Assembly (NCBI GenBank): GCA_020740775.1
Contig: JAHEWK010000030.1
Location: 310,001 to 374,000, forward strand
Length of the DNA: 64,000 nucleotides
From: Ilyonectria destructans
Taxonomy: Eukaryota; Ascomycota; Sordariomycetes; Hypocreales; Nectriaceae
Direction of reading: 5' to 3'
Shown: positions 559 through 60,329 of the stretch, in pieces
Layout: each line of letters begins with the position of its first letter
Numbering within the stretch: position 1 is the stretch's first letter
Made by a program: the position numbers and the translations under genes
Notes under the pieces: generated by a model
What the model was told of the DNA's origin: nothing
The model's input: only the letters and a program-made list of their open reading frames with translations
The model's database searches: none

Positions 559-566
559 TGTATCCC

Positions 567-3827: not shown

Positions 3828-4097
3828 ATGGATAGATGGAATGAGAACCCTCTTCAACAGCAGTCGCCACTGGAGAATGACAACATGGGACAATTTCTTC
3901 CCAGCAGCTTCCAAGAGATCGAGTTACCACCGCTATCCGCTGAAGAGTTTGCCACATATAACCGCCCGGCTGTTATGATGGAAGGCTTTGTACGGTGAAT
4001 TGCTGATGTGCTCGTTATACTCTAGCTAACAAGACTGGAGCACGAACACTTTCGTCGTATTTGGAATACCCTGCTTAAAGCATGCAACCCTGAATAA
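3828..4097 (+). CDS. Possible small two-exon gene, hypothetical
   Basis: A 56-codon frame begins MDRWNENPLQQQ and contains PPLSAEEFATYNRPAVMMEGF. If a GTGAAT...CTAACAAG intron at 3995-4033 is removed, the frame continues to LEHEHFRRIWNTLLKACNPE and stops at 4095-4097. The branch-like CTAAC supports splicing, but 39 bp is short even for a fungal intron, and no domain is recognised. It lies between two hAT copies and may be a remnant or a chance frame. Confidence 0.28.
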
Positions 4098-33451: not shown

Positions 33452-33633
33452 CAAGGCTCGAAACCACTACATCCACTTCACTTTTGGACCAAGTAGAGTG
33501 GATGTACGATTTATTAGGCAATTACATAGTGGATGTAACACATATTCGACCGGAGTGGAATGGATGTACACGTGGATTTATAAGTGGATTTTTGTAAGTG
33601 GATTTTTGAGGCTATTCACAACCTCGTCGACGC

Positions 33634-36109
33634 CTATTCAGCCTCACTTTCAGAGGTTGACACTAACTCTTCAGCCTCTTGCTGCTGTGATGAATCGTCA
33701 ACCTCGCTGGCGCTGTCCTCGCCCTCGAATAGCCATTTTGACTCAGCAAGAGCCAGCTCGTCGTCGCTTAGAGTCGCACAACCGGCATCCAGCTTACTTT
33801 CAACGTGTGACTTAAGCAATGGATCCAGGTCCTTGATAAGGCCAGCACGGTACCAAGAGCGTAAAACCTGACAAATGGCGATAATCTCAGCATCTAGGTC
33901 AGTTCGCAACCCCGAGATCATCTTGCCAGCAGCTGAAAATAACCTCTCACACTCGGCTGACATCGGTTGGATTGTCAGGAAGTCCAAGGCCATCCTGGAT
34001 AACCGAGGATATCTACTTTGCTTAGTGATCCAGTAACCAATTGGATCACGAACGTCGCCGTCGCTGGCCTCACGGTCCGTCTGCCACGCTTGGTACTCAT
34101 CACCAACAATAGCTGCTGCGGAGGTTGGTGTTGAGCTTGGCAGACGGCTGTTCTTCTCGAAGGGGTTGAAAAACCGAGGTCTTTTTGCTGGTGGCTCGTC
34201 ATCGCCTCTGCTGCTGCTGGATCTAACCTCGAAATGAGCGTAATCAGACAGCCAGACGTCGGCAACCATCTCTTTTGCCTTTTCAACCCAACTAGGCTTA
34301 TGAGCCCAGGTTTCATCAAACCAGTCCCAACGATAAGCTGGATGGAGCGCTATTGCCGTATAGTAGATAGGCGTCTCGTCTAGCCGCCGATAATATTCAT
34401 CCAGCTTATCCCAAGCAAGGTTGATTCCGATGCGGAAGTGCTCGGAATCAGGAAAGTTAGCAGCAAGCTGCTTATATTCTTCCAGTGTGTTAAGCAACAA
34501 CTTATAGCCAAGCACCACGTCCCAGATATTGCCATAGGAGCCGGTCCAGCCTTGCTTACGCCTGCGGATGTATCCATCACCCTCAAGCATCTTTACTACG
34601 GTCTCAAAAACAGTCAGAATAGCCTCCAAATGGTAAAGAACCTCCCAGTCTTTATCCGTTAGCTGATTCTCGTCTCGGAGGATGTGTGGTTTTTTCGCCA
34701 ATTTGGCTTGTGTCATTCGGCCAGTCTTTTTAGACCGATTTTCGTCCTCCCATTGCGCCTTATACTTAATCAGTAGGAGTTCGATAGAGGTTTTTAGCCG
34801 TAGAGCCCTACGGATCATGTAGAGTTGTAACAGCCAACGCATATCGTTATCGACAATTAGCTTGAGTGGTTTATTCGATCGGAGTTTGAGAGTGGTGGCG
34901 CGATCAATTTCGTCCTATTAGATATACCAAATCAGTATGAGACGAACAAGATTTAGTAAAAACCACTTACCCTCTGGACCTCCTTAAATAAGTAAATTAG
35001 CTGATGGCTAATATACATATTAACTACGATGTTATATAACTTGCCAACTGGTCCTTTTTTGTGCTATTGAGCGTATTCAGTATCAGATAATGCTTCTGCG
35101 CCTGATAATTGCTGCTCGAACGCGCCGGCTTTTTGCCAAATAAGAGCGCCTTGGCTGACAAGTTAATTATGTGGCCAATACAGCGTCCTCGGCGTAGTCG
35201 GCCATTAAACCCAAGTTCAGCACCAATAACCTCCATTGCAGTATCGTTATTTTCAGCATTGTCGAGCGTGAAATAGCCAATCTTCTCTGGACTTACGCCA
35301 AGAGTGTGTAGGACGTCGAGAACCTCCCCACCGATTGTTGAGCCGAAGTGACGATGAGCCTCTGGAACCCCAATCATGATTTTGCATAGTCTATTCTTCT
35401 CATCTCTGAAAAAACAAGCAATACCGTAGAGGGCAAGCTTATTTCGAGACGTCCTGCCATCAAATGAGATATAAAGCGCTCCAGGGGAGTTCCTCAGCAC
35501 CTCGATAACCGTCTGCTTGTGGCGGTTATACTCTTGAATGATCTTATATCGGACAGCCGTGGCACTCAAGTTGGCGCGTTGGATCGAAACGGGGGGATTC
35601 AAATAGTCGAAGATTTCTCGGAGGATGGGGTTCTCAGCGAAGGAAAAGGACTGGTTGCTACTGACGATTAATTCGACTAGCATACGCTGAAAGTGTTGCT
35701 TATCAAAGCGTGAGATGAAGTTATTCGCGATATTCTGTTCCGTAGGCTTGTTGACGTCCAGTTTCAGAACAGAGGCAATAGTCGGCTGGTTCGATTTCAG
35801 TGCGCCTTCGGATTTCAGCTGTGCTGTGCTCTTTTTCTCTCCCTCTGGTGCTGGTGATTTGTGCTCACGCCATAGATGATTTGCCGCGTTCTGGAGACCT
35901 GAAGAGGTAAAACTCGCGATAATGGGACGATTTCTGAGGACACAGTCCTTGCAAGCCCATTTGCGTAAGCTATGACGTTGAATATCATAGCCAAAGTCCC
36001 ACAGCCAAGAGCTAGTATCACGAGCGCGTTCTGACCAAGTCCAGCCTCTGAAATGGCGAAAAAGCCGGTCTTCGAGGTGGTGCTGTTGGCCTGGCTGGTT
36101 GGCTGACAT
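33634..36109 (-). pseudogene. hAT transposase, frameshifted (copy C)
   Basis: The start codon is at 36109; the LTR insertion sits directly before it and has removed the native leader. The BED finger and core are open from 36109 to about 35140. There the same one-base deletion as in copy B gives ALLFGKKPARSSSN. After the intron the second coding part (34842-33634, 402 codons) is intact and includes the complete dimerisation domain (FLTIQPMSAECERLFSAAGK). A single substitution (GWTS to GRTS) separates it from B in the core. Without frame correction it makes no full transposase. Confidence 0.85.
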
Positions 36110-36243
36110 TGTGAACGGCCTCTAGTAACTGTATTCCAGCTATCTAGTCCAGGATGCTATTTACATCAAAGATGAAGAAGAAAGAAAGAAGTTCCCAAGT
36201 GCCCCTGAGCTGTGGAACGATTATCATCCCTGGCGCGCACGTG

Positions 36244-36283
36244 TACGGAAGGCTATATCTAGGACTGGGTCAAAACCCATTTT
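36244..36283 (+). repeat. Element 1 left terminal inverted repeat (40 bp)
   Basis: Begins TACGGAAGGCTATATCTAGG and ends ACCCATTTT. It is identical over 40 bp to the reverse complement of 41607-41646. The first ten bases are shared with Element 2. Confidence 0.95.
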
Positions 36284-36519
36284 CCATCGATTTTAGTCAA
36301 TACAGGGACCCTACCCCATACCCCATGTCGCCCACCCCACCCCGGTATATGGATTAATTCATATCGAAATATACCATACTACGTATTGAAAATAAAAAAT
36401 GATGTGCGCGAACGGCCCGGGCGTGGACGGCCACGTTTGCCCCCGTTTGCTCCCGGACAGCATCGTCCGCGCACATTTATGTTTCCATCGCAATACACTA
36501 AATCTATTATCCTTTCGTT

Positions 36520-37719
36520 ATGCCTCCAATACTCGTGTACTGCCCAGCACGGGTCCGTACTCAACATGCCACGATCTTACGGGATAACCCTTCTTGGGTC
36601 TCCTGTCCGCATTGTGGTAGCCCCCTAGCCGATAAGCCCTCCGACGATGCCTCTGACGATGACCTTGAAGAGGTAGACTTCCAGAGCCTACCCGATCGGA
36701 CCCGAAAGGCCTTTTCAGCGACTGAACGCCCCCAGCCAGTACTGTACGCCTCAAACGCCGAGTCGCAAGCGGCACTTACTCATCGAGCTGGCGCAACCAA
36801 TTTCTCATCTGCTCTTCGAGAGGCGGATAAAGCCCGTCAGGCCAGTATTCGGAACGATAAAACTAAGGCCGAACGGAGCAGTATGGAGCTTATACAGCCC
36901 CGTAAGATCGGAATATCGTTGTACTTGTACGCTGGGAATTACTGTACGGCCGAGTCTGGTGGTATCGAGACCCTTGAGTGGTTTGATGTCATGGCCGTAC
37001 ATAGGTTTCCGATGGCCGTACAGTTCAATACGGCCCTGGAAGCAGATACACACCAGCAGTTAATGTCCGCCCTTATCAAACGGTTCTTTTCTAACTCAGG
37101 GGAATGGGCAAAACTAGCTGAACGGGAGTGGACGGCTATTCCTATCGATGGGAAGGCAGCAAGCCTAAACTTGAACGTTCGGTTCTGTGAGGCAGCGTAC
37201 GAGTCCACTCAGCTCTGGACATTCCTGCTGCAGACGGGACTTCTGCCTCGGTCGGAAATCCGCCTACACCTACGTACCGGCGTCTCTGCCAACCAACCAG
37301 AACAGGACAGAAAGGTCAGTACGAAGGGTAAAAGGACCGTACTGGCCCATCCACAAGGACGCAAGCGCGATACGCCCGAGTCACGTACCAGTATTACAGA
37401 CAAGACCGAGAAACGCTCCACTTCGACAGCTAAACGAATCAAGACGGAACCGAGCGGGCCAGTACGGAAGAAGGATAAAAAGGCGTCTGGTAAGGCCGAG
37501 GCTAGCGAGTCTGCCCAGCAGGAGCTAGCTAAAGCAGAGGTGGACATACCCGTTCAGGAGATAATAGTTGCGGATGAGCCTGTTCGGTATGGATCTGAAG
37601 GAGGTAACGAGGATTGCGAAGACCCCTTTGAGGATAGCCTCTCGCAGTCCGACCCCTTCGTGGTATTTAAAGGTACACGTTCGTACGCGAAGGCTTCTGA
37701 ACGGGCATCTTTACAGTAA
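36520..37719 (+). CDS. Element 1 gene A: CPHCG-motif accessory protein, 399 aa
   Basis: An uninterrupted frame runs from MPPILVYCPARVRTQH. Residues ~28-31 hold CPHC, a possible zinc ribbon half. An acidic patch follows (DDASDDDLEEVDF). A conserved middle (~120-260) runs IGISLYLYAGNYCTAES ... WTAIPIDGKAASLNLNVRF ... QLWTFLLQTGLL. The last third is basic, then acidic (RIKTEPSGPVRKKDKK; EDCEDPFEDSLSQSDPF). Element 2 gene A has the same order of parts with low sequence identity. No known domain is recognised. Its position, transcribed from one terminus toward the integrase, suggests a transposition partner, for example for DNA binding or target choice; that is inference. Confidence 0.8.
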   Translation: MPPILVYCPARVRTQHATILRDNPSWVSCPHCGSPLADKPSDDASDDDLEEVDFQSLPDRTRKAFSATERPQPVLYASNAESQAALTHRAGATNFSSALREADKARQASIRNDKTKAERSSMELIQPRKIGISLYLYAGNYCTAESGGIETLEWFDVMAVHRFPMAVQFNTALEADTHQQLMSALIKRFFSNSGEWAKLAEREWTAIPIDGKAASLNLNVRFCEAAYESTQLWTFLLQTGLLPRSEIRLHLRTGVSANQPEQDRKVSTKGKRTVLAHPQGRKRDTPESRTSITDKTEKRSTSTAKRIKTEPSGPVRKKDKKASGKAEASESAQQELAKAEVDIPVQEIIVADEPVRYGSEGGNEDCEDPFEDSLSQSDPFVVFKGTRSYAKASERASLQ

Positions 37720-37725
37720 AAGTTC

Positions 37726-39393
37726 CTACTCTATAGCCAGCCCCGTTTCTGAATTTACATCCCATTCGTTCTCGGAACCGTCCGTTCTCCTGCGTACATG
37801 CCCGTCCAGATCAAATCCTCGCATCCTTAATGTATCCTCTAAGTGTTGGATACCTCCGGTTGGCGGCTCCTGGAGCTGTAATTGAGGGTCGACTCCGGAT
37901 TTGTGGTGGTCTTCGAGTTTTTCCCGTAGGTAAACGTATGAGCGATAAAATGGGATCTTGATACCGTTTACACGGCGCTGTTCGCTCCCTTCCCTGGCTG
38001 AACAGCTAAGTACGGACTTGCAAAGCCCTAATACCTCGGTAGAGAGATACGACGATAGATCGAATGATCTGTGACCAAGAAGCTCCTCCATCTCCTCTAG
38101 TACGGCCGGGATGATTGGTTCCCTATAATCCTGCGTACGGGACTGTTCAGGGTGGTGATAGAGGACGTATGGGACCCCAGGAATAACGTGAGGTCGGTTG
38201 GATTGTTTGCGGATGTAATGATTATTCCATACCCGTACGAAGCCGCGCAGGTCCGTATCTAAAGGTTCCATATATATATAGAGTAGGGCAATCTGGTCGT
38301 AGATTTGGCTTGGTTCGAAAAGCCCGATTGTATGTAGGGTGCCAAAGACAGTCTACACATATTAGTACGGGGGCGTTTAGGGACGCCCGGAGGCGCTTAA
38401 GAGTGTCCTTACCCGCCAAAACTGCGAACGGCCTTTACAAAGACGATTCCACCAGCTCTCGATCTTAACATTATGGATGCTCTTGCCGTATACAAAACAG
38501 TCCTGAAACTGAATTGGTACGGCCTCGCCCGTAAGTGGTTGTACCCGTTCGCGCCCAGTCTGACTCGAGTGGTACCAATGGAGGCCAGCAACAACCGGAG
38601 TTTCTTTCCCACGATCAGCTCGTATAATCCGAGGCGTAAAGCCAAGTTCGCGAACGACCGAGAGGTATTGGAGCCCAACGCCGATGGACGTATGCGTACG
38701 AAAGCCGACAAAAAGCCAAGGGATATATCTCGAGTAGGCGTCGATCCCAGCGTAGATCTCAAAGCCGTATGGCCTTAATTTATCGTACGCATCGATAGAC
38801 CAGATGAAATTTGGCCCAGGGCAGGTCCAGCCCGTACGGCGCCGTCTAAACTCGTCCCGCCGGTCCCGGAAGCTCCGTTCGTGGACCTCTTTGTAGGCAG
38901 AGTAGAGGACATCTCGGCTTATAGACAATCCTTGTTGGCGCAGCTCTGTTCGGAGGTATTCCCGCCCGTACCCTGCCAAACGGCTCGTTGGGTCGACTGC
39001 TTGGGCGATATGAGTAATGGCCTGTTCTCGTAAGGTAATATTTTCCTCTCGAGTATGCCGCTTGCGAAGGTCCATCTCTTGACGTAGCCGTACGAGGCCG
39101 GTTAGGGTAATAGAAAACCCCTCGGAATGTAGTACCTGGAGTAAGCGCTCGTCCGTAAGGTAGTGTTCGAAGAAGTGGAAGCGTAAACGGTCCCGGAGGG
39201 CATCGGTCACATCCGTACGGCCCTCGCGTTGGAAGCCCCAAAGTCGAAGGAAGCGCTTTAGGGTAGATACGGAAACAGAGACGTCTAGGTCCGTCCGGAG
39301 CCATTCGCACAAGGCCTTATCCGTCCAGCGTAACTGCCATTTCTCGTAGATTTGATGTTGGTAAGGCTCAAGATTGATCCTAGGTCGGGGCAT
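37726..39393 (-). CDS. Element 1 gene B: DDE integrase/transposase with N-terminal HTH, 535 aa
   Basis: Exon 1 (39393-38413) and exon 2 (38352-37726) are joined across a 60-bp intron (GTAAGG...GTGTAG) at the codon boundary after QFWR. Residues 1-55 look like a Clr5-type helix-turn-helix (PYQHQIYEKW ... TLKRFLRLWGF). Catalytic acidic residues are D201 (FIWSIDAYDKL), D260 (IIRADRGKET) and E312 (NVKIESWW), with 51 residues between D260 and E312. The GKSIHNVKIE motif is typical of retroviral-type integrase cores found outside retroelements. Exon 2 has the conserved WNNHYIRKQSNRPHVIPG block. The stop lies 6 bp from that of gene A, so the transcripts probably overlap at the 3' ends. Confidence 0.88.
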
Positions 39394-39862
39394 ATTATCG
39401 TTGCGTTCGGGGGCGTTAGCAGACGTTCGGGGATGTTACGAGGCGTTCGGGAGCGTTCGGGGGTGTAAAAGATATTTCGATGGATATACAGTCGGATGTT
39501 AAGACATGTACGAGGAAGAGAAAAGAAGACAGCGCAAGGTCCATTTCTGACCCGTACGGGGGAGAGCCCGCCCGCCGGACTATCTCAAATACCGAAAGCC
39601 CAAAACGGTTATGAACAGGAGCTCACCCTCACGAACAGGCCCGTTCGTCATCCCCCCCACCCAAAAAAAAAAAAAAAAACCCGAAAATCTCTGTCTGAAA
39701 AGCAAATGGCGCCGTACGGATGCTCACCCATCCGAACGCACCCGTACAGACAAGAACGGGAAGCCAAAAAAAACCTTGCCGAAAACGTGATACCGACCGA
39801 CCTGTGCGAAGCCAAACGGGGTCGTTCGCGGGTATAGTATCCTGAACGCCAACGGAAATGAC
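39394..39862. other. Element 1 spacer between genes B and C
   Basis: About 470 bp that probably hold the gene B promoter. Octamer-like CGTTCGGG words recur at 39400-39465. An 18-A run lies at about 39663-39680. No frame is supported. Confidence 0.5.
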
Positions 39863-40958
39863 CTACTCGGAACCAGAATCTAGAAAAAAGTTAGATATCG
39901 TCCGGGAATGTACAGACCTGTGCGCGCCCGTACGGGGATGAGCGGGGATATACATACCTGACTCCTCCTCAGACTCGTCGGCGACCTGGCTGAGGACGTC
40001 CGCGAGCATACGGAGGTGCCTACGGGGGACGGAACGGATGGCGTCAAGAATGTCTTCGTCGTCGTCTAGGGCCGTACGCTTGCGGCTGCGACCGCCCGAG
40101 GCCTTACGGCTACGCTTCTTGCCCCTAGGCTTGGCATCTCCGTCCTTGACTAGAAAAGACATAAGAACGGGAGCGAACGGGAGCGAACGGGAGAAAGCGG
40201 GGGAAAACGGGGGCAAATGGGGGCGTACGTACTATAGAGACTGCACCGCTTAGCGGCGGAGTTGTAGCGACAGTTCGCGCAGGAGCCGCTGATCTGAACG
40301 CAGCTTTCGAACGGTCCCAAACCCTTCCGGCAGGAAGCGCACGCATCCGTTCCGGACCGTAAGTTGCCGTACAGATGGTGGAAGGCCGCATCAGAATTAG
40401 CACCCCGCTTCAGATTGAGCGAACTGGAGATTTCGGCTCCGTCCACGCCCGGACGGGTACGGACGCCCATCTCACGCTTGATCTAAATGTGGACGTCAGC
40501 GTACAGGTCTAGACGAGGCCGTACGGCTACGAGCGGGAGCAAACAACAAACCCTGAAGTAGTTCTGGGCAAGGGCACGAACGGCGGCGGACACGTTCTTA
40601 GAGATATCTATCGAACGGGTCAGAACGGGTGTAAACGGATAGAAACGGGCGTGAGCGGGAAAGTACGCTTGAGGACCCAAGCGGTCAAATGCTCGCCAAC
40701 GGTCTCGTTCGGCTGCGGATCCTCAAGCTCTACGTTCGGGAGCCGATGGCCGCGAACGCGAGTGTCCGGGGGCGTCCAGCTAGGATGGTTGGGGGGAACC
40801 CAGGGCTCGAAGTCGTCCGCCTCCGAGAGGGCGTGTTCGCTAACGTCCGAGAGCGAATCGCTTCCGTCCGGGCCAGGAAGGGGGTTACCGGGACTGGGGC
40901 CGTTCGGGGCCGGAGCGGGACCGGACGCTCCCTTTCCGGAGCGAGTTCCCCGAGGCAT
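39863..40958 (-). CDS. Element 1 gene C: Cys-cluster protein in five exons, 268 aa
   Basis: Reading from MPRGTRSGKGASGPAPA, exons 40958-40667, 40607-40552, 40482-40233, 40149-39958 and 39879-39863 keep one frame, each with GT...AG ends. A Pro/Asp-rich start leads to LTAWVLKHISKNVSAAVRAL. The central cluster follows: C-x2-C (CASC), GPFESC, CANC, KRC. The end is a basic then acidic tail (RKRTALDDDEDILDAIRSVP; ADESEEESDSGSE). The Cys pattern resembles the fungal DUF3716 cluster as I remember it. Element 2 gene C has the same plan, which supports this exon model. Confidence 0.72.
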
Positions 40959-41606
40959 ATCGTTCAGGAGTATTCGGGAGCGTTCGGGAGTGTTTGGGGG
41001 CGTTCGGGCGCGTTCGGGAGTTGGGGCGTACGGAATTGTACGAAAGTGGCTATCGACAAACCGGGGCTATACGCAAATGTTAGTATGTGTACGGAGCCGA
41101 ACGAATGTGTGAAAAATAAAGAAAAAAATATGGGGAAGTTAAGGTGGGGGCCGGAAGGCCCCGTACGGGACCGTACGAGATCCGAATTTCTCAGGGAAGG
41201 TGGGGAAAAAAAGATTTGGGGCAACTGCGGAAACTGCTGAAAAACGCCAGTAAGGCAAGAACCAGAACAAAGGCAGGGCAGGCGCCCAGGCACGTGACTG
41301 CCAGGCAGGGGAGCAAGCCAGCCGACCGGTTGCAATTGAGCGCCTGCACGGAAGCGATCGTGAGAACCCATCTCTGGACGGTTCGGAACGCGAAAAAGAC
41401 GCTGCGTATTGACCTGATCGCTCCCGATCGGCCGGCGTATGTAACAAGGCGGTATTGTGATGGCGCGGGCTGGAAAACTGGGATATGAGAAAAGACCCAT
41501 AAATCTTAGAGTTTCCAGCGGTTTTATTGGCTATTGCCAAATTGGGACTAGCTGATTGCATCTATCCAGTGGTGGTCCGAACGCACGGCTGCCGTGGATC
41601 TATCCA
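40959..41606. other. Element 1 right subterminal region
   Basis: Probable gene C promoter, with a cluster of CGTTCGGG-type repeats at 40970-41030. No gene is supported. Confidence 0.5.
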
Positions 41607-41646
41607 AAAATGGGTTTTGACCCAGTCCTAGATATAGCCTTCCGTA
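41607..41646 (-). repeat. Element 1 right terminal inverted repeat (40 bp)
   Basis: Ends ...GATATAGCCTTCCGTA. It is the perfect inverse of 36244-36283. Confidence 0.95.
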
Positions 41647-43654: not shown

Positions 43655-43786
43655 TATATCGAAGAAAGAAAGAAATTCCTATTCCTAAATGCCCCTGAGC
43701 TGTGGAACGATTTCTCGTGCCTGGCGCGCACGAGCCTAGTACGTCTTGCGGCACAGCCGCAAGGATATGGGCCCTGGCCCGTGACA
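43655..43786 (-). repeat. Left (3') Gypsy LTR, outer part divergent
   Basis: From GAAGAAAGAAAGAAATTCC to GGCCCGTGACA (43786) it matches the right LTR closely. To the left, where TGTGAACGGCC is expected, sequence is different (ATATAAAGATATTTATATC). The outer LTR part therefore comes from another subfamily or has been replaced. The intact palindrome CTCGTGC...GCACGAG is seen here. Confidence 0.75.
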
Positions 43787-48779: not shown

Positions 48780-48901
48780 TGTGAACGGCCTCTAGTAACT
48801 GTATTCCAGCTATCTAGTCCAGGATGCTATTTACATCAAAGATGAAGAAGAAAGAAAGAAATTCCTAAATGCCCCTGAGCTGTGGAACGATTTCTCGTGC
48901 C

Positions 48902-48941
48902 TACGGAAGGCCGGAGGGATCAACTGGTCATAACCCCCCTG
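48902..48941 (+). repeat. Element 2 left terminal inverted repeat (40 bp)
   Basis: Perfect inverse of 54057-54096. Identity stops exactly after ...AACCCCCCTG. Confidence 0.95.
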
Positions 48942-49333
48942 GCCTCACAGACCCTTGCCAATTGTCTCTTAGGTCGACCCTGGCGTGTGAGCCCATTCCT
49001 GCTTAGATAAATATCACTCTTGGCCACATACGCTGCTCCCAAAACAGCCAAGTGCCAGAGCTGAGGCAGTGGCACTACGGCAGTATTGCTCGTATGATTC
49101 CATTCGCAATTTGCCGTTCTCCAGTCAACCCCAGATCTACAATTGCCAGTTGTTATGATAATATATCTCTCTGTATGTAACCATACTGTACCGGCTTCAT
49201 ATATACAAACTACCATTCTCATCTCTACTATAAGAGAGTGCTCTTCTTCTTATACTTGAACTTGAACTGAAATCACTCTTCCTCCCATTCTTATCTACAG
49301 GTAAACCTTCTGTCTCTTTTACACAAGCCCATC
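48942..49333. other. Element 2 left leader, probable gene A promoter
   Basis: No frame is supported. AT-rich sequence (TTATGATAATATATC) at 49153-49167 could serve as a TATA-like core. Confidence 0.4.
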
Positions 49334-50473
49334 ATGCCTTCTACTTTGACTCCATTCTGTTCTATTGGGGGAGGCAGGCATGCCAGCTTCCAAGCTAAGA
49401 ACCCCCGTGCAGTTTGCTGCCCCCATTGTGGACAACAGTTCAAACCGATCACTGATTGTGTTGATCTTACGGAGGACGACGATGAAGATGCCCCTACTCC
49501 TACTGCCGTCCCTACTTCTCGCCCCAACGAGCGCCGCAAACTATCATCAACGATTATTCCTACCAATCGCTCGACTTCACTCCCCGCTGGTATCGAAAAT
49601 GCCACGCTTGACGCAATGGCTAGGCGTCAAGAAAGCATTGCCAATACGGGCCGCAAAGACCCAATTGCTATTGGGGTTCAAGCTACATTCTGGGTTGGTG
49701 CTGGAGCCTATGAATATATTGGCGACATTAAGACCATTGAGTACAGCAGCGCGCCGAAAGCCGTACGGAAGTGCATGGGCAATGTTTCAGTTGTCCTCCA
49801 TCGCGACCACGGGACTCATGAGGCGATGGTGCGTTATCTAGTCAAGCAACTAGATCTAGAGCAGAGCAAGCATGCGTGGGAAGTTGTCTTCTCCGTCGAG
49901 AAAGGTGGCAGCGCGCCTGGACCAGCACGACTGCCCGAAAGGGCTTACACAACTACTAGACTCTACGACCTCTTGCGCCAGACTTCTACCAACTTTGACA
50001 AGGACATCAGGAGCTCTAAGGCTTCTCTGAGCTTCTGGCGTTTCTTTGAACTTGACCCTTTGGAGATGCCACCAAAGCCTAGGACCAAGAGGGGTTACGA
50101 GATCATGTCGGATGCTGACTCAGAGACATACTCGCCAAGTCCCAAGAAGAAAAAGGCCACTCGCCCAAAGGCACGCCTTCCAGCTGTCAAAGAAGAGTGG
50201 ACTGTGACTGTGAAGTCAGAAGCTATTAAGCAGGAACCAACCACGCCTCTATCGGCAATAAAGGCGGCAATCAAACAAGAGCGCATCGTCGAAGACAAGC
50301 ATATCGAGGATGACGACCCCTTCCTCTCTGACGTTGAGAATAAGACTATGAATGAGTTGTTGGCCGAGATTGTTGTCGCTGGGGATGAGGAGATCAGGGT
50401 TGAAACAACCCCTTCAAAGAGACAATCATCTCGTGTATCCAAGAAGTCATGGAAGGTGCAGCAGGATACATAG
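49334..50473 (+). CDS. Element 2 gene A: CPHCG-motif accessory protein, 379 aa
   Basis: A single frame starts MPSTLTPFCSIGGGRHASF. The CCPHCG motif is at ~28-33, followed at once by DCVDLTEDDDEDAP, which fits the SUMO-interacting pattern (hydrophobic core plus acidic run). The middle domain (QATFWVGAGAYEYIGDIK ... AWEVVFSVEKGG ... TRLYDLLRQTSTNF) parallels gene A of Element 1. The C-terminal third is basic (SPKKKKATRPKAR) and contains four psi-K-x-E sites (VKEE, VKSE, IKQE twice), the consensus for SUMO attachment. It ends with a DDDPFLSDVENKT acidic patch that also occurs, as EDPFEDS, in Element 1. Function is unknown. Confidence 0.82.
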   Translation: MPSTLTPFCSIGGGRHASFQAKNPRAVCCPHCGQQFKPITDCVDLTEDDDEDAPTPTAVPTSRPNERRKLSSTIIPTNRSTSLPAGIENATLDAMARRQESIANTGRKDPIAIGVQATFWVGAGAYEYIGDIKTIEYSSAPKAVRKCMGNVSVVLHRDHGTHEAMVRYLVKQLDLEQSKHAWEVVFSVEKGGSAPGPARLPERAYTTTRLYDLLRQTSTNFDKDIRSSKASLSFWRFFELDPLEMPPKPRTKRGYEIMSDADSETYSPSPKKKKATRPKARLPAVKEEWTVTVKSEAIKQEPTTPLSAIKAAIKQERIVEDKHIEDDDPFLSDVENKTMNELLAEIVVAGDEEIRVETTPSKRQSSRVSKKSWKVQQDT

Positions 50474-50985
50474 GAAGGTGTACTGTTGTGGCGTTAGGAT
50501 CTCTTTATTCTTGTAATTTTAGATACGGGTGTGTGTGTGTGTGTGTGATCAATACTCTTAGTCTATTTGCGTAACAAAGAGAATACTTGTAGTCCCTTAC
50601 AGACGCTTTATGTATATGCACAGCACGGTCCTGATATGACAAAGGGTTACAATTAGTGTGTGATATCCTTGGCCATTGAAGGCCTCATGATACCTTAACA
50701 CTTATCGCAAGTGAAGCCTCCAAAGTATCAGGGGTGAGAGCGGGTCTTAGTGTGTGCACTTGCGATAAGTTCAAGACCTGTGTTTCAATTGACAAGTAAC
50801 CTTTTTGCGCTATTTGCGAAAGCCTTGGGTTCGAATTCTGTTTTTCCTTTTTTTGGGGGGCTGGTTGGCGTGCAGGTTGTGTAATTGCGATGAGGCTGCG
50901 CAACCAAGAGAAGGGAAGGTATGCAACGAAGAGGAGGTTCGCAATGAAGAGAACTCGAAAGAGCATACATATATATGAGGCTCAA
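50474..50985. other. Element 2 convergent spacer between genes A and B
   Basis: Includes a (GT)n run at 50529-50548 and a 14-bp inverted repeat (see 50700-50770). No gene is supported. Confidence 0.55.
50700..50770. terminator. Inverted repeat between convergent genes A and B
   Basis: ACTTATCGCAAGTG at 50700-50713 is the exact inverse of 50757-50770. It lies between the converging 3' ends and may form a hairpin in either transcript. A role in transcript end formation is inference. Confidence 0.4.
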
Positions 50986-52630
50986 TTAAAAAGCATCATC
51001 CTCTGCAGCTGCCGCAGCAACGCTTTGGCTGAGTTCTTCCACATGGATGCCATTGTCTCCTAAATGGCCTCTAAGTCGATCAAGGCCACCAACAGGCGTC
51101 TCTAAAAGGCCAATACTCGGGGCTGTGTTCTGCTCGAGATGACGCTGTAGATAATCACGCAAGGCGAGGTATGCAGACAGGCGTGGTGTTTCTCCAGAAT
51201 CCCTCTCGTTATCCTCCTCTTCTTCCTTAGGATCATCTTTATATCCATATTCTTCTGCAAAGACTTCGCACACATCGATCGTATCGTCCGGCAAATATGC
51301 ATCAAGGTCATAGGGGTCGTCGGCAAAGGCATTCTGCAACTCCTCGAGGCGGTCTTGAGGAATGACTTCAGCAAAGTTCGTAGCTTGATGAGCCTCAGGT
51401 TGATGATATAGTACAAAAGGCTGGCCCGGCACAACATGTGGTCTGTTGCTTTGCTTGCGAATGTAGTGGGAGTTCCACATCAACACAAAGTCGGCAAACT
51501 CCCTGCGCAGGATTGGCATGTAGATATAGAGTAAGGCAATGCGGTCGGGGAGGGAGTCATTAGAGAAATGACTGATCTGTGTGAGGGTTATGAAGTACTT
51601 CTGTAGATAAAGACTTTATGTTAGTTACGGTAATGAGTCAAGAGAGAGAACATACCCGCCAAGCCCCTCCTCTTCCTCGAGAGAAGCGAAGCCACCAACT
51701 CTCAATCTTCTCATTACTAGTGCTTTTTCCATATATCCAGCACTGTCGGAATGTAATGGGATCCCTTTGTCCATCATCACGCACACGTAGTCGGTTTTGG
51801 GAGAGATACCAATGTGCACCCGCCATGAGAACAGTTTCTCCTCCGCGGTCAGAGCGGACGAGATTCGGCATCTTCCCTCGCTCAGAGAGAACACGTAGAT
51901 ACTGGCCTGCTACACTACGCGATGTACCAGCAGAGATTCCAATATAGAACCAGGTTATGTAGCGCGAGTAGGCATCAATTGAGGCGTAGATCTCAAATCC
52001 CCAGGCCTTGAGCTTGTCATGTGCATCAATTGACCAGATGAAGTCAGGCCCTGGGGCAGTCCATCCAACGCGCTGGTATCTCATCGTCTTCCATCGATCT
52101 GTAACACTCGCAGGATGGAACTCTCGAAATGCATCATAGAGTACCTTCCGACTGAGTACGTGACCTTGTTGGCGCACGTAGGTATAGAGATATGTTCGGC
52201 CGTATGTATTGAGGATTGTATTGCGCCGGGACTGGGATTCGAAAAACTCTCGTAACTTTTCGAGTTGGGGGGCGATTTTGTCTTCATCTTGGCGGCGCCA
52301 AAGGCCGAGTTCTCGACGTATACGGCTCAGACCTGTCTTAGTGATAATGAAACCGTCTGAATGGAGCTGGAGGAGGAGGAAGTGATCATTGAGAACCTGT
52401 TGAAAGAAGAGGTATTTGATACGATCACGTAGTTCCTCTGTATCCTGCGTCAACGTTCGAAAGGAAGTGCCCCATTTACGGAAGTTCCAGTAAAGTGTTG
52501 ATTGACTTATCTCTAGGGAGTAGTCAGATGCGAGTCGCTGCAGAATCTCTTGGTTAGTGAGCTTATCGTGAGACCTCCATTCCTCAAGCTGGAATTGATA
52601 GAGAGATAGATCGTGAGTTGGCCGAACCAT
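50986..52630 (-). CDS. Element 2 gene B: DDE integrase/transposase with N-terminal HTH, 529 aa
   Basis: Exon 1 (52630-51656) and exon 2 (51600-50986) are joined across a 55-bp intron (GTATGT...CTACAG) at the codon boundary after GGAWR, the same site and phase as in Element 1. HTH 1-55 (YQFQLEEWRS ... STLYWNFRKWG). Catalytic D202 (FIWSIDAHDKL), D261 (LVRSDRGGET) and E310 (NEKIESWW), with 48 residues between the last two. Exon 2 begins KYFITLTQIS, includes RIALLYIYMPILRREF and the strongly conserved WNSHYIRKQSNRPHVVPG, then an acidic tail. Identity to Element 1 gene B is highest in the catalytic core and at WN-HYIRKQ-NRPHV. Confidence 0.9.
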
Positions 52631-53034
52631 GTTCTCTCATCCCCGAGGATAAGTCAACAAGAGTAATACAGGACAGAAAAGTGGGGAAGAGAGAAAGGGG
52701 GAGGAAATGTCTCATACACAAGAGTGGAGAATAGAATCTTTTCATACCGCCTCGTATGCTACTAGTGCTGACGCGGACTGGTCTACCCCTGACGAGAACT
52801 GGTCTACCCCTGATGATCAATACTCTTCATACCCTATACCTATGTCAATTCAAGAAAATAATTCAAATAAATTTATCAAGAGATCAAGATAAAGAAGGCA
52901 TATATAATATCATGGTGAAGTCATTACTTATTTCTGAGTTATACTTAAAGAGAAGGAGGGGTATCAATCCATTAGTTCCTCCTACGCCATATCCTAAGAT
53001 TACATGAAACAAAGGGAGAGACCTGCATCGCGAT
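52631..53034. other. Element 2 spacer between genes B and C
   Basis: Probable gene B promoter. Direct repeats of CTGGTCTACCCCTGA are seen at 52778-52813. No gene is supported. Confidence 0.5.
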
Positions 53035-53819
53035 TTATTTATTTCTTGATGACCTTGACTGGCGAGCTCTTTTTGACCTCCGCTTTAAGGCTCTAGTAAA
53101 GATCTTCATGACCTCCCGAAATGCATCTTTTTCGTCAGGCTCGAGCTCATCAAAGAGATCTCGGCCATCCTCACTATCATCAGATTCAACCGCTTTGCGC
53201 TTCGTAGATGGTTTGGCTAGAGATAGTCAGCAATGAAATGAGACCAAGATATAGATACATACGTGATTCAGAATGAGAAGCAAGAGAACATCCAAGCCCT
53301 GATCGATTCCAGTCACAATTACCACAGATTGTAGAGCCCTCAGCTACGATACAGCCAATAAGGGCGCCTTTCTTCTGAGCACACCTAGTACAACAGTCCT
53401 GCGCCTCCCGCTCGTCTCCCATGAGATGGCGGATCATCGCATCACAGTTCTGACTGCGACTGAAGTTCAAGACGTAGGGGTTCTGCTTCAGACTCCGCAT
53501 ATCATACCGGGATCGGAGCTCTAACTCTCGGACCGGCTGTATAGGTTATTACAGAGCAGACCGGGGCAAGGACCAAGAGACTGACCTTATTGAGCTCGAG
53601 GATCGGAAGCACTCGAGTCGAACAGTGTTTGAGTGCATTCATTAGGGCCCAGACGGTGAGGTCTGGGTTTGCATCAGGCTGAGCAGCTTCATGGTCAAAG
53701 ACACGTGTCTCTATACCAAAGATCTCTTTGGGCAGGAAGCAGAGTCTACTGGAAGGGAAACCGATAAGAGGTTCAGGTTCAGTACTCGCCGAGGCAGAGC
53801 GTCTTGTCTGTTGAGCCAT
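53035..53819 (-). CDS. Element 2 gene C: Cys-cluster protein in three exons, 229 aa
   Basis: Exons 53819-53586, 53536-53263 and 53216-53035 keep one frame. The start is MAQQTRRSASASTEPEP. The first part has LTVWALMNALKHCSTRVLPI. The Cys cluster is CCTRC, GCIV, CGNC, LGC, the same layout as in Element 1 gene C and like the fungal DUF3716 pattern as I recall it. Then comes an acidic stretch (VESDDSEDGRDLFDELEPD) and a basic tail (ALKRRSKRARQSRSSRNK). Donor GTCAGT of intron 1 is unusual; the others are standard. Confidence 0.74.
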
Positions 53820-54056
53820 TGGAGTGAAATTGAATTGATGAGGGTTATGTGAACACACATAAACACCACGTCAGCAGTAGCATGAAGAGAGTAAGGCTCG
53901 TGGGTGCCACAGCAACACCAGGATGACAAGGGGGTCGAATGAGGATACGGATATTACGATCACTAGAGGTGGAGTCGATGTAAGTGGAAGAGTTATTTCA
54001 GTACTGAAGGGGGTGAGGTCCTCTAACTTGGTGTGCCCTGATTGAAATTGGGCCAG

Positions 54057-54096
54057 CAGGGGGGTTATGACCAGTTGATCCCTCCGGCCTTCCGTA
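54057..54096 (-). repeat. Element 2 right terminal inverted repeat (40 bp)
   Basis: Ends ...CCCTCCGGCCTTCCGTA, then the duplicated GTGCC. Confidence 0.95.
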
Positions 54097-54166
54097 GTGC
54101 CTGGCGCGCACGAGCCTAGTACGTCTTGCGGCACAGCCGCAAGGATATGGGCCCTGGCCCGTGACA

Positions 54167-54519
54167 AAAACAGGCTATATAGTCCGAGGATTTTTAGGAA
54201 AATAATTCTAGATATTCAATTAAAAAAGTCACAATAGGCTATTTTTCTTATATTATTAATTAATTAATTTAATTTTTTAAAATTAAAAATAAGAAAAAAA
54301 AATGTATAAATAAGATTTTTCTAAATAACTCTATAAAAAACCTTTCTAATATATTAGGAAAACTTATACTTATTACTATATACTTAATAGATATACATTT
54401 AAAATTATAGCTATTTTTAACATAGTATGAATTTTAAAGATTTTTTTAAAAATCGCAATTTAAGGTGAAAATCAGAGTGTATCACTCGCTTGTCTGTATC
54501 GCTCGCTTATCATATACGT
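54167..54519. mobile_element. MITE remnant, right end of the TAACGTATATGATAAGCGAG family
   Basis: The right end CTCGCTTATCATATACGT followed by TA is the same terminus as the 57.6-58.0 kb MITE. The left end is missing where the Gypsy LTR begins. Very AT-rich. Confidence 0.6.
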
Positions 54520-54836
54520 TATACTAACTTTGTTAATATTATATTACTCTTTAATATAATTGAAGTTAATCCTCCCTCTGTATCTACTTATTTTCTAAAT
54601 ACATCTATTCTTACAAATCAGCTGGGCCAATGACCTATGTATTTATTAAATCAACTAATATTTTAGAAAATTGAATAACTTTAGTCTTTCAATATTTCTG
54701 AGTAATGTGCTCAAATTTATTATATTTATAATAGATATAATCGGAAGTCTTATTCTCGATTCCTTACTTCAGCAGCTGATTAATAAGTCTTTATAAAATT
54801 ATATTTAAAACCCCGGATCCTATATTTGTGAACGGC
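54520..54836. other. AT-rich, nothing recognised
   Basis: RIP-like AT-rich sequence without frames or repeats that I can name. Confidence 0.5.
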
Positions 54837-54909
54837 CTCTAGTAGCTGGATTTCAGCCCAGGACGGCATTCACGTCAAAGATGAAGAAGAAAGAAAGAAG
54901 TTCCCAAGT
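54837..54909 (-). repeat. Gypsy LTR fragment
   Basis: TGTGAACGGCCTCTAGTAGC to AAGTTCCCAAG matches the inner end of the Gypsy LTR at 36111. It is cut off where another LTR starts. Confidence 0.8.
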
Positions 54910-55084
54910 TGTCAGATATGTCAGTGGCGAAAGTTGCCACCTATTGCCACCTATTGCCACAAGGCTTAGCAATCAGCTTCTAGCTGATTCTATACAGAAG
55001 GGAAAGGGTATATAAAGCTTGCTCTGAAACCTCAAGATATAGGGGGACACAATACACAACTTTGATTCACCCTAATATTTGACA
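54910..55084 (+). repeat. Solo LTR (175 bp) with promoter
   Basis: Starts TGTCAGATATGTCAG and ends CTAATATTTGACA, with short inverted edges. It contains TATATAAAGC at about 55010 and a likely start region. The style suggests Copia. It is inserted in or joined to the Gypsy LTR fragment; no target duplication is visible. Confidence 0.6.
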
Positions 55085-57425
55085 ATAAGGAAAATAATTA
55101 CCTTTCTGGGAACAACTTCCTCATTAAGATAAGAAGAATATTCTTCTATAGTCTCATTAGAAGATATATAGAATTCCTAATCAGAATCTGACTCAGAATC
55201 TTTACGGGATTCTACACTATAAATATCCTCATTTAATTCATCAAAAGATAAATTAGGATCAGTATTTAAGCCTCCTCTTTCTCTTTTAAGCCTATTTAAA
55301 ATTAGTATACTGAATATAAGAAAAGAGGAAAATATATAACTTACTTGTTATATTCACTTTTTAATATACTGATAACATCATCAGATATTTGCAAATAGTG
55401 AAATAATAAGCCCCTTTCCTTAAAATGAATTATTTTAAACCTAGGGTCTAAAATAATACCTAAAAGAAAGGGTTTGAGCTTTCTAATAGTAGAAGCTGTT
55501 ATTTTCGTAGGAAAATATTTTTCTAGTTTTTCTAAGCCAGCTTGTATAGCAATAGAAAAATTAGAATAGAAATCCTCCTATATATAATTAGTATTATAAT
55601 ACTAGGGATTTAGACAAAATAAAACTTACCTCAGAATTCCGGCTATTTTTTAGAAGAAAATCACTATTTAATCCTTCAACTTTATTATATATCTGATATA
55701 TATATAACAAACCCTCTGAAATAGTAGTATAAGCCTGGCCTTGTAATTTAATAGAAGGCTTAAGAAAAACCTCAAAAATCCTTTTTAATTGCCCTATTTC
55801 TACCCAGTCAGAATTAGAGAAAAGAATCCTTTTAAATTCAGTATTTGAGGTATTTCTCATAATATAGAATAAAGGGTCTTTTAGCTCTAATACTGAACTA
55901 AGTATATAATAGGTTGAATTCCACCTCGTTGTATTATCTATTATAAGATTAGTAAGGTTTTATAAGCTTATAAAGATTAATAATTACCAAGAGGAATAGA
56001 GGATTTCTTAGAAGTTAATTTCCCTTCTTTTTGATATTTTAAAGTACCCTCTTCTAGAAGCTTTTTAGCTTCCCGAGTATATTTTATAATAGTTATAAGC
56101 CGTCTTATACGGCTTATAAGAGCTAGAAAAGTTAGTATTTTTAGGTTAAAAGAGAAATAAGATATTAAAATAAAAAAGAGAAAGAGAAAGAGAAATAGGA
56201 AATAGACAATAGAAAATAGGAAATAGGAAATAGGAAATAGGAAATAGGAAATAGGAAATAGGAAAAAATAACATACTATTAAAAGAAGGCTCTTTAGGCT
56301 CAATTTCTTCATCCTCTTCAATAGCATTATTAAATAATACATTAGTATAATTTAATAACCTATTTTCTAAAGAAGGATTAGAAAGATAATTCTTTAAAAT
56401 ACTCCGCACAATAATATTAATTATATGTGCAATACAGCGAATATCATTTAAAAAGGAACCTTTAAAATTACTTAGATAAGCATTTTCAAAGGTTTTAATA
56501 AATGTATTATTATTCGCTGCATTATCCCTAGTTATACTATAATTTTATATTATCTTATTTCTATTATAAAGGGAAATACCAACCTAAGAATAGATTGAAA
56601 ATCTATATTAGGATAAGGCTTTAGAATTTGAATAAATTCATTAAAGAGATATAATCCAGTATGGATTTCATTAAGATTAGAAAATCCTATATTATATTAG
56701 TTATTAAATAAAATAATGGTAGAACATACTAACCAATTAGCTTATAATATAAATTAAAAGCTGAATCAATATAAATAAGAATTATCCCTAAATAGGAAAT
56801 CTGATTACTAGCAGTCCAAATATCAAAAGTTAGGGAAAATGTCCCTTGACTTTTAATATTAGCTACTAGATGGGTATTTAATTCTAATAGACTAAAATTA
56901 AAGGTCTTATTTAAGATCTCTTTAATTTTATGTCTATTAATAATTGGCCCAGATCTATAAGAATAATTAGTTTATATATATAGGAAATTAAGAATACTAA
57001 CTTATTATAAAAGGATAATAAATCCTGAAAAGATAGAGAGTTAATAACTCTAAAAGAGAGATTATTTTCAATGAGAAAATAAAGGATCTTATTTAAAGCC
57101 TCTTCTTCAGTAAAAGAAATAAAGGAATTAGGCCTTATTCTTTTAGCTAAATTAAAGCTAAAAGTTTCAGGGCTTTGTGGGCTTAAATTGCTTTCTAAAA
57201 ACTATTAGTAAAAAAATAAATAAAATAATAAAAATAACTAACTTCTTTTTTTGGTTTTTTCAGCTTCCTTATTATAAGAAATTTTTGGATGCTTATATTG
57301 ATAGTGGCGAGCATAATTATATGATTTAAATTCTTTAATAATATCGATATTTTTATAGTTGCAACTAATAAAATATTAGTATCTTAAAAGATAGATTTTT
57401 AAAATAGAAAATAGAAAAATAAATA

Positions 57426-58293
57426 ACGTACTTGATAAGCATGCCAGTCAAACAAGCTTGCCGGACACTCATACTTTACAGCTAAAAGTAACAATATTAG
57501 ATTTTCGAAAACGGGCTATATAACTATTAAAAATATAAAAACATCATTTTTAGATATTTAAAGAAAAAGAAAATAGTATAACGTATATGATAAGCGAGTG
57601 GGACAAATAAGCGAGCGTGACACCTATACTGTACAGCTAAAAGAGCAAACTTTAAATTTTCTAAAATAGGGCATTTAATTACTATATAGCTAAAAATGAT
57701 TATCTAGTTTTTTGAAAAGAAAAGTTATAATATAGTATTTTTTATAGACTTTTGAAAAAAATTATATAGCTTAAAAACTTAAAAAGACTTTAAAATAACA
57801 GTGCGAATAAGGTTTTTCCTAATAGCCTTACAAATAACTTTTTTAAAAATCTAAGAAAATTGATATTAAGTATTTATTATATAACGAAACTAATTGAGAA
57901 GTTTTAGCTACTTAGAGCAAGGTTAAATTTTCTAGAAACTTTTTATCTTAAGGTGTAAATGCTAAGAAATTTAAACTCTCACACTCGCTTATTTGTCCCA
58001 CTTGCTTATCATAGACGTTAGTATTTTTCTTAAATTTTTAGTTAGCTTATTATATATAAAAATATGAAGATACACAGTGCGAATAGGTTTTTTCTTAATA
58101 ACTTTATAGAAAAAAATAAATAAGATTTTATAAAATCTTCTTAGATATTGTATTACATAATTAACATACCTTCTAAGTTTTAGCTATTTTAGGCTTAGTT
58201 CTGATTTTTAAATTTTTTTTAAAAATTGCGATTTAAGGTATAAAACGCAAGTGACTGGTATACTTGTTTGACCGGCATGCTTATCAAGTACGT
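57426..58293. mobile_element. Outer MITE in the dead hAT gene
   Basis: Ends ACGTACTTGATAAGCATGCC and its inverse at 58274-58293 are flanked by TA on both sides, as for Tc1/mariner-type elements. Net length without the inner MITE is about 428 bp. It splits the hAT coding sequence between the N-terminal segment and the BED finger. Confidence 0.75.
57581..58018. mobile_element. Inner MITE nested in the outer MITE
   Basis: Termini ACGTATATGATAAGCGAGTG and inverse (CACTTGCTTATCATAGACGT) flanked by TA; 438 bp. It is related to, but distinct from, the host MITE (GATAAGC core shared). Confidence 0.75.
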
Positions 58294-58620
58294 TATACCT
58301 TGTACAAGCTTTAATACCTGCCTATTAATAGCAGGAGTAATAGGCAGTAGCTCCCTTATAAAAAGACCCTCCTTAAAAATATAGATTTTTGTTTTATTTG
58401 GAGGGTCTAGGGCATACTCAATCCTATTATAAGGGGATTTAATAGGATTGGAAAGAGAATTAGAAGAATCAGCTTCTTCTAAAATAGAGGAGGATATAGC
58501 TCTATTAAAAGGCAAAATAGAAGAAGAAGATTCTTCTAAATTAGAAGATATTTCCCTATTAAAAGGCTGAGTATCAATTTCAGATTCAGAATGATATTCT
58601 TCTTGAAGAGAGTCTTAAGA

Positions 58621-59229
58621 TTCCTTAAAGCTTTTATTATAGCTAGACGATATTATTTTAATAGAAAGTAAAGAAAATAGTGTAATTAGGTTATTTAGAT
58701 AATAGGATAGAATCATAAGCTAATATAGCAGATAGTAATAATATTAAAAATGAAGGATATACTGATATTATATATAATAAGATATATTACTTTAAAATCT
58801 ATTGCTTTAAAATCTATTACTTTAAAATTAATTACTTTAAAAATAGAATTTAAAGTAGATATATTATTTATTTCTATCGGAATATTAATTATCTGATATT
58901 TTATTTTTATAATTTAAATTAATTTTTAACTTATATATTTTTAAAGCTTAATCAGCAGAAATAAACTATTTTTATAATTTCTTATTTTAGCGATTTTTAC
59001 TATTTTAATACTTTTTAAATTAAGTTAATTATTTATATTCTCCAATTTATCTATTTCCTTTATATATTTAATATACTATATATATTACTATTTATATTTA
59101 TTATATCTATTTATTATATCTATTTATTATATCTATTTAATATATTTATATAATCTATCTAGTTAAGCTACCTATATAATATATTGATTTAGTATATATA
59201 TTTATATTATATATTAGGGAATTGATATA
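58621..59229. other. AT-rich, nothing recognised
   Basis: Extremely AT-rich with repeated TTTATTATATCTAT words near 59100-59160 and TTACTTTAAAATCTATT words near 58790-58850. No genes. Confidence 0.5.
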
Positions 59230-59996
59230 GCGGCATGACTATTCTGATACAGAGGCATGACTCTTACAGTGGCATGACTTTTACAACATCTTATTCGCCA
59301 GATTTCCGTCGACCCATAGATACATCCTCGCAAAGGCGGTGAAGCCAGCTTCGCTAACAAGACCTCCTTTTCAGTGTAGAAGCAATTAGGTCGGGCAAGC
59401 TCCCCTAGAACAGGTCTTGTCCAGGCGTCAAAATAAAGTCTAGTTTTCCATACAGAACAAGGCCAGCTCTATTACGCCCTCGAAGGCAGCTCCCTCTATT
59501 TCCTAACTGTAACACCAGAACGAACCTCCTCGTCGCTCTCAACCATCTTCCACTGACTCCTTCAACTGCGGACGCTTGGTTGCGTCCTCCGTCCGCTGGC
59601 ACGTACCCATGTAGTAAGGGTGGGCTGACCCTGTCTTGTCAGCTCTGTCGCTGTCGTTTTCGTGGACGTAATTGATCGCTAGAACTAGGGCTTCGAGTTC
59701 GACGTCTTTGACTGCTCACTGAGCTCGAACAAGACTCGGACCGGGACATGATGCACGTCCTGATTGTTGACGGTTGATAGATTAGCAGTGCGTAGCTAGC
59801 TTGCGGATGGAGAGCTTGATCGCGTCGCGTCGCGTCAGTTACTAAGGTATGATTGTGGAGAGCTAAGCTCTGGGTACGAATTAGAGCTGTCGGCAGAATC
59901 GTGATGTGCTAACAAAAGAGGGTCCTGTCCAATCAGATGTTGTAAAAGTCATGCCACTGTAAGAGTCATGCCTCTGTATCAAAATAGTCATGCCGC
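59230..59996. mobile_element. MITE with ~60-bp inverted ends (767 bp)
   Basis: Ends GCGGCATGACTATTCTGATA and inverse, each containing three spaced GGCATGACT words, flanked by TA at 59228-59229 and 59997-59998. The interior is GC-balanced, in contrast to neighbours, suggesting arrival after the RIP episode. No transposase; mobilisation by a Tc1/mariner-type enzyme is inference. Confidence 0.82.
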
Positions 59997-59998
59997 TA

Positions 59999-60329
59999 CC
60001 CGTTGGTTCATGTGGAGCGAAGCTCCAAGGCGAACCAACTAAGCAAGCTTAGTTGGCCACAAAATTGCGAGACAGCCACAAAACTGCGAGACAGGATCAA
60101 GATCACATGAATTTTGCCATCAGATTGTTAACCGAAGAGAGCCCGATGCGATTTTCGAGAGCCAAATTTTTGAGCCGCAGATATACCTTTTGTACTAGCA
60201 GATTTACGCCAATTTCCCCGCCAACTCTGATGCTGTCTCGCGTTTTTGTGGCTGTCTCGCAATTTTGTGGCCAACTAAGCTTGCTTAGTTGGATCGCCTT
60301 GGGGCTTGCCCCACACATGATCCAACGGG
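59999..60329. mobile_element. MITE with ~90-bp inverted ends (331 bp)
   Basis: Starts CCCGTTGGTTCATGTGGAGC; the right end is the inverse. Inner arms share CAACTAAGCAAGCTTAGTTG (itself a palindrome) and CCACAAAATTGCGAGACAGC. TA flanks both sides, and the left TA is shared with the previous MITE. Confidence 0.82.

Follow-up and report, generated by a model that had tools for sequence, protein, structure and literature searches.

Is the integrase-bearing element at positions 48902-54096 of a 64,000-nucleotide stretch of Ilyonectria destructans DNA (contig JAHEWK010000030.1; the whole stretch is hereafter the window) a new kind of transposon, or an unusual member of a known one? A preliminary description of the window, made from its letters, had proposed a three-gene DNA transposon of the integrase type, distinct from the Ginger type and without an assigned superfamily. 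We searched the genome of which the window is part (71.67 Mb in 74 contigs, labelled C13, C15 and so on) and studied eight families under names of our own: el2, the element at 48902-54096; el1, or Element 1, a diverged element of the same group in the window; and F2 to F7. We are confident that el2 is an IS3EU/GingerRoot cut-and-paste transposon with a conserved partner gene, A, and a captured DUF3716 gene, C. What is new here is the gene set and the group with 5-bp target duplications, within the known IS3EU; these families or their gene A may already be catalogued in Repbase.

Structure and copies of el2

The element is an intact DNA transposon of 5195 bp with three predicted genes and the following features, where TIR stands for terminal inverted repeat.

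48897..48901, no strand: left target duplication, 5 bp, GTGCC (sequence)
48902..48941, forward: left TIR, 40 bp, TACGGAAGGCCGG... (repeat search and genome TIR count)
49334..50473, forward: gene A, 379 aa, with a predicted N-terminal C-H-C-C motif, a middle part without match and a lysine-rich tail with four psi-K-x-E motifs (open reading frame, Pfam, motif counts)
50986..51600, reverse: gene B exon 2, encoding the C-terminal part of the transposase (gene prediction)
51601..51655, reverse: gene B intron, predicted, GTATGT...CTACAG (same place in five other families)
51656..52630, reverse: gene B exon 1, encoding the integrase core (D202, D261 and E310; DD48E) after a helical N-terminal region (gene prediction, Pfam)
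53035..53216, reverse: gene C exon 3, lysine/arginine-rich end (gene prediction)
53263..53536, reverse: gene C exon 2, cysteine-rich DUF3716 domain (gene prediction, Pfam)
53586..53819, reverse: gene C exon 1, predicted (gene prediction)
54057..54096, reverse: right TIR, 40 bp (repeat search and genome TIR count)
54097..54101, no strand: right target duplication, 5 bp, GTGCC (sequence)
43661..43786, forward: empty copy of the repeat hit by el2 (comparison with the joined flanks)

The two TIRs match perfectly over 40 bp and are bordered by GTGCC on both sides, as the preliminary description had reported, and its term 'lesion-free' is correct insofar as all three predicted genes have open frames. 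A tool value of 41 bp for the TIR arose from pairing of the duplication's outer C/G as well. With up to three mismatches allowed, the genome holds 11 occurrences of the 40-bp TIR and 0 of the reversed control. The flanks of el2, fused with a single GTGCC, match 43661-43786 at 95% across 126 columns; the empty site noted earlier at 43.7 kb is thus confirmed, as a paralogous copy of the repeat without insert and not as the ancestral locus of el2.

Gene B (52630-50986, reverse strand) encodes 529 aa and contains a single predicted intron. Its integrase core matched PF24764 at E=5.9e-22, which supports the integrase-type reading, and PF00665 at E=4e-05, below the cut-off; the catalytic residues were read as D202, D261 and E310, the last two 48 apart. 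The Clr5-like helix-turn-helix earlier assigned to B gave a match in el2 (E=0.35) and in Element 1 (E=0.0071), yet both fall below the Pfam cut-off. In a sequence search of solved structures with B exon 1 the best E was only 0.23 (TnsB of Tn7), and the structure model of this exon had a mean predicted local distance difference test (pLDDT) score of 45.5, with blocks within residues 11-50 at 76-87.

DNA copies of el2 comprise the window copy, another at full length (99%) and three that are long but partial or interrupted (98-99%), and the element has probably been mobile recently. Relative to the window copy, 46 of the 65 substitutions in the C16 copy are C-to-T or G-to-A, which fits repeat-induced point mutation; the C26 copy, with 13 of 32, has no such pattern. 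The C19 copy is split by an inserted segment of about 0.7 kb (C19:369270-369964) whose edges carry an 11-bp direct repeat and which, judged by a sequence motif, may hold hAT-like coding remnants.

Protein B gave at least 87 genome matches, which collapse to 77 loci, and PF24764 (rva_4) gave 162. Among the B matches listed, 33 of the 77 loci have neither A nor C by these searches, a count that understates A because F7, which is among the 33, holds an A-like frame; families beyond the eight (e.g., at C14:473658 and C47:45811) were left out. The expectation of multi-copy elements with the same three genes was borne out, close relatives sharing the gene set.

Ends, target duplications and placement in IS3EU

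IS3EU elements are described as always having TA..TA ends, usually 6-bp duplications and no HHCC finger, and GingerRoot elements, from plants and animals, as having an integrase-type transposase, mostly TA..TA ends and 6-bp duplications (PMC10045372). Fungal TET-bearing IS3EU elements have TIRs over 30 bp, ends TAYGG..CCRTA and a transposase and an alpha-kinase in opposite orientation (PMC12730594), and in Colletotrichum IS3EU is named the commonest DNA transposon (PMC11645255).

The termini TACGG..CCGTA, which agree with the TA..TA rule, were present in all seven families with located ends, i.e., all except F6. The TIRs of el2, el1 and F7 were found without presuming an end, and for F2-F5 the TACGG pattern and position served to look for the ends; several retrieved stretches did not reach the element end. 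TIR lengths of 40 bp in el2, 40 bp in Element 1 and 34 bp in F7 (at 97%) likewise agree with the fungal form. No H2C2/HHCC finger was matched in Pfam at E up to 1 in the el2, Element 1 and F7 proteins, and IS3 transposase was the best NCBIfam match for all three B proteins (9.1e-06, 0.0014 and 4.6e-08, all below the curated cut-off), pointing to an IS3-related integrase-type DDD/E core. We placed el2 in IS3EU, following Kojima's description, because of its ends, TIR length, finger-less integrase, weak IS3 match and 6-bp sister families, and by these features its membership is very likely. The earlier statement that no superfamily was assigned was therefore not borne out, as IS3EU/GingerRoot fits the ends, the TIR length, the integrase type and the duplications of the sister families.

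Like the published IS3EU elements, el2 combines TA..TA ends and TIRs over 30 bp with a finger-less integrase and a second gene opposite the transposase; it differs in its 5-bp duplications, its DUF3716 gene and a partner gene without an alpha-kinase match, and, unlike the TET-bearing elements, it gave no TET/JBP Pfam match in A, B or C. It shares with GingerRoot an integrase-type transposase and TA..TA ends, GingerRoot having 6-bp duplications by description. Styx of Zymoseptoria is an IS3EU-related element of 7927 bp with four frames (transposase, GATA, CCHC and DUF3577) and 6-bp duplications (PMC10853768). As a multi-gene fungal element with an IS3EU-related transposase el2 resembles it; with 5195 bp, three genes and no GATA, CCHC or DUF3577 Pfam match, el2 is, by that description, not a Styx element. 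A search under the element name 'FinTIR' gave nothing relevant.

Ginger1, Ginger2/TDD and IS481EU would also provide an integrase-type transposase, the Ginger groups within a TIR transposon, and could account for the PF00665 match; moreover, TDD-4 and TDD-5 have 5-bp duplications (PMC2836005). Ginger ends are TGTNR, however, with Ginger1 targeting CCGG or CCGT and Ginger2 targeting RTATAY and carrying an H2C2 finger, and with specific 4-bp targets in most (PMC2836005), and IS481EU has ends TNT..AYA and duplications of about 4, 15 or 25 bp (PMC10045372). El2 begins with TACGG, its group makes duplications of 5-6 bp, and none of these Ginger or IS481EU features was found, nor any H2C2 match at E up to 1. 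We consider that el2 almost certainly belongs to none of them, and the earlier view that it is not a Ginger-type element is upheld with respect to Ginger1 and Ginger2.

Target duplications were counted in the 31 copies for which both ends were located. Copies whose second end was not located (the C25 copies of F2 and F3, the C28 copy of the Element 1 relative and six of F4), one-ended copies of the el2 family (on C28, C16 and C33 and two on C13), six of the 17 listed F7 copies, three further F7-like matches and five of the 12 F3 copies stand outside this count. Exact duplications flank 19 of the 31 copies, 8 of 5 bp in four families and 11 of 6 bp. All three el2 copies have 5 bp, as do three of four F2 copies (the fourth is off by one base) and the single F4 copy; F3 has duplications in two of six, one of 5 bp and one of 6 bp; and those of F5 (2/4), el1 (1/2) and F7 (7/11) are of 6 bp. 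As a control, the flanks of different copies agreed over at least 5 bp in four of 930 same-strand pairs and in six of 1860 opposite-strand comparisons, the latter amounting to three different agreements, since each was scored from either side.

Among these agreements are copies without a duplication of their own whose flank matches that of another copy, namely F7 at C15:53751-57377 and C18:137758-141384 and F3 at C16:702417 and C18:176097. Copies have likely exchanged sequence here, or contigs were joined in assembly. For the F7 copies an exactly reciprocal exchange was rejected, as the CCCTCC side alone pairs exactly and the other side is offset by two bases. In an Element 1 relative (C18:57557-62959) and in this F7 pair, a 6-bp repeat is separated from one TIR end by two bases, as if a TIR end had been left untrimmed before joining.

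In the tree of B proteins, F6 and F7 stand opposite the other six families (support 99/98), and the 6-bp families el1 and F5 are neighbors of the 5-bp families F4, el2, F2 and F3, which group together with support 90/93. The simplest reading is one change of the duplication length from 6 to 5 bp, against which one 6-bp F3 copy speaks; the tree was rooted at its midpoint and F7 lies on a long branch, so the direction of the change is not fixed.

This 5-bp group bears on whether the families might form a separate, unnamed superfamily beside IS3EU, defined by a fungal pair of A and B, duplications of 5-6 bp and a DD48E core. The eight 5-bp duplications in four families would suit it, as would the pairing of A with B and the absence of the word DUF3716 from the literature searched on these transposons (gene A has no name to search by). 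However, the ends, the TIR length and the 6-bp sister families equal published fungal IS3EU, and an ancestral IS3EU with two proteins has already been proposed for the Styx lineage (PMC10853768), which makes a separate superfamily improbable. The preliminary description had asked whether a curated superfamily already holds genes A, B and C: the superfamily exists, as IS3EU, and a DUF3716 gene in it was not mentioned in the literature searched.

Genes A and C beside the integrase

Gene A of el2 is intronless and gave no Pfam match above cut-off. It has 31 matches in the genome, 26 of them within 5 kb of a B match (among the B matches listed), so that in this one genome, which the linkage covers, A belongs to the transposon. 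A profile built from A of el2, F2, F3, el1 and F5 found F4 A at 8.2e-17 and F7 A at 0.002, the best of 6000 shuffled decoys scoring 0.011, and a blastp comparison of F3 and F7 gene A gave 1.7e-05 over 34 N-terminal residues. Gene A thus accompanies the integrase in six families in which its homology is firm by these alignments, and the two genes lie tail to tail in all eight.

Six of the eight families have the motif C-x(6-15)-H-x(12)-C-x2-C in A, F4 and F6 being without it in the frames read. In total, 24 SUMO-type psi-K-x-E/D motifs fall within the last 170 residues of A over the eight families, 0 in the rest of A and 0 in B of el2; the shuffle means for the tails sum to about 4.1. Six families gave shuffle p values of 0.0008-0.0072, F4 gave 0.16 and el1 0.38, and in four families the motif is followed by S/T-P. 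Most likely, the predicted protein A is zinc-binding with a SUMO-modified, lysine-rich tail, and we rather favor a role for it as a partner in transposition. An alpha-kinase, the partner gene of rust IS3EU, was rejected for A of el2, Element 1 and F7 (no Pfam match at E up to 1).

Gene C (53819-53035, reverse strand) encodes 229 aa with two predicted introns. Its DUF3716 domain scored E=2.1e-07 and 31.2 bits against a Pfam gathering threshold of 22, with 45.1 bits in Element 1 and 50.5 bits in F4; the earlier remark that A and C are not recognized transposon proteins accordingly stands for A, for which nothing exceeded the Pfam cut-off, and not for C. For 67 of the 85 genome matches of gene C a B match lies no more than 5 kb away, and when loci are collapsed 41 of 58 lie near B against about 0.6 expected (both among the B matches listed). 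The DUF3716 domain itself has 53 matches: 46 have an rva_4 match no farther than 6 kb away (among the 132 of 162 rva_4 matches listed, second matches at the same F7 loci omitted) and seven lie alone. Since these seven lie away from integrases, gene C looks captured, and some of the seven may be host genes; an earlier concern that homologues of A and C would be unrelated host genes therefore applies in part to C and not to A in this genome. Gene C was found only in the six families whose B carries the intron at the shared site, directly after W-R (el2 and five others); in F6 and F7 this site is open coding sequence, and genome searches with gene C and DUF3716 found no C with either. Most likely, C is a host-type DUF3716 gene captured and kept by one lineage.

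DUF3716 matches lie on both sides of the integrase in four F4 loci (C35:24061/28020, C37:155854/159810, C13:789020/792889 and C16:218961/222936), and from one copy together with these double matches the F4 order would be C', A, B, C. At C31:55051-55790 and 11 other places, N-terminal halves of C (about 50% identity) occur with no B match, the C31 place having a partial A match 0.2 kb off; these are perhaps a non-autonomous, internally deleted family.

A and C could instead be recently caught passengers with no role in transposition, which would explain why the searches found C with neither F6 nor F7 and why DUF3716 matches exist away from integrases. We consider this unlikely: A and B keep their tail-to-tail arrangement in 8/8 families, C is doubled in the four F4 loci, and a recent passenger is not expected to track the B tree. 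Between el1 and F5 the ratio of nonsynonymous to synonymous substitution (dN/dS) was well below 1, with 0.24 for A, 0.24 and 0.17 for the exons of B, and 0.36 (42 codons) and 0.20 (79 codons) for two segments of C, and purifying selection has acted on A, B and C between these two elements.

Proposed mechanism and the surrounding window

In the mechanism that we propose, the N-terminal helix-turn-helix units of B would bind the TIRs, its DD48E core would excise the element at the TA..TA ends in a cut-and-paste manner, and B would then join the element to its target across a 5-bp stagger (6 bp in the sister families). Gene A, as a transposon-specific, zinc-binding partner with a SUMO-modified tail, would probably aid the transposition complex itself or help to place it in the nucleus or on chromatin, and the captured DUF3716 protein would probably be an accessory or anti-silencing factor, although the chances that C is a helpful accessory seem to us evenly balanced. 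More broadly, we hold as a tentative model, at somewhat less than even confidence, that fungal IS3EU is a two-protein machine of B and a zinc-binding, multi-site SUMO target A, to which one lineage added DUF3716, and that within this lineage a single branch switched its stagger between 6 and 5 bp.

Several points weigh against placing el2 in IS3EU with a conserved partner A. The duplication of el2 is 5 bp where IS3EU usually has 6 (8 of 5 bp and 11 of 6 bp over all families), and 12 of the 31 two-ended copies have none. The placement was made by features and weak profile matches; for B of Element 1, IS630 (0.0025) follows close behind IS3, and B of F7 matches IS481 (4.4e-05) as well. Homology of gene A is marginal in F7, whose A drops to 0.74, within the decoys, when F4 is added to the profile, and unproven in F6, whose A was not found with the profile in a copy that is cut at the start of A. 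The A tails of Element 1 (one motif) and F4 (two) are not enriched, the families share ancestry, so that the motif counts are not eight independent tests, and the structure model of gene A is without confidence (mean pLDDT 34.5, from a two-sequence alignment). The dN/dS values come from a single pair without a significance test, and the mechanism is read from sequence.

The window also holds Element 1, with these features:

36244..41646, forward: Element 1, diverged, of the same group as el2, with TIRs and target duplication CACGTG (TIR and gene searches)
36520-37713, forward: gene A
39393 to about 37729, reverse: gene B, two exons
40482-40153, reverse: gene C DUF3716 frame

The insertion sites of el1 (36224-36249) and el2 (48890-48905) are about 12 bp apart at homologous positions in two copies of the same repeat, of which 43661-43786 is a copy; the nearby sites, CACGTG and GTGCC, perhaps reflect a shared target preference. 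Direct and inverted repeats, 2-2.7 kb long (92-99.8%), lie at 565-7142 and 33450-36115 and end near the Element 1 site. To the right of el2, positions 54200-60000 are A+T-rich (G+C content 0.24-0.33 in 2-kb steps, against 0.43-0.56 to the left), as in sequence changed by repeat-induced point mutation. No RNA families or tRNAs were reported within the window (ARAGORN run with the bacterial code).

In the papers cited here, IS3EU is characterized mainly by its transposase and ends. If A is required, IS3EU would join the transposon groups that use two proteins, and excision assays in fungi should include A. With integrases about 46% identical that make 5-bp and 6-bp staggers in the same genome, what determines target spacing in a retroviral-type integrase could be tested directly. 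The mismatched duplications, if they result from recombination between copies, would agree with the link between Styx and chromosome rearrangements described for Zymoseptoria (PMC10853768).

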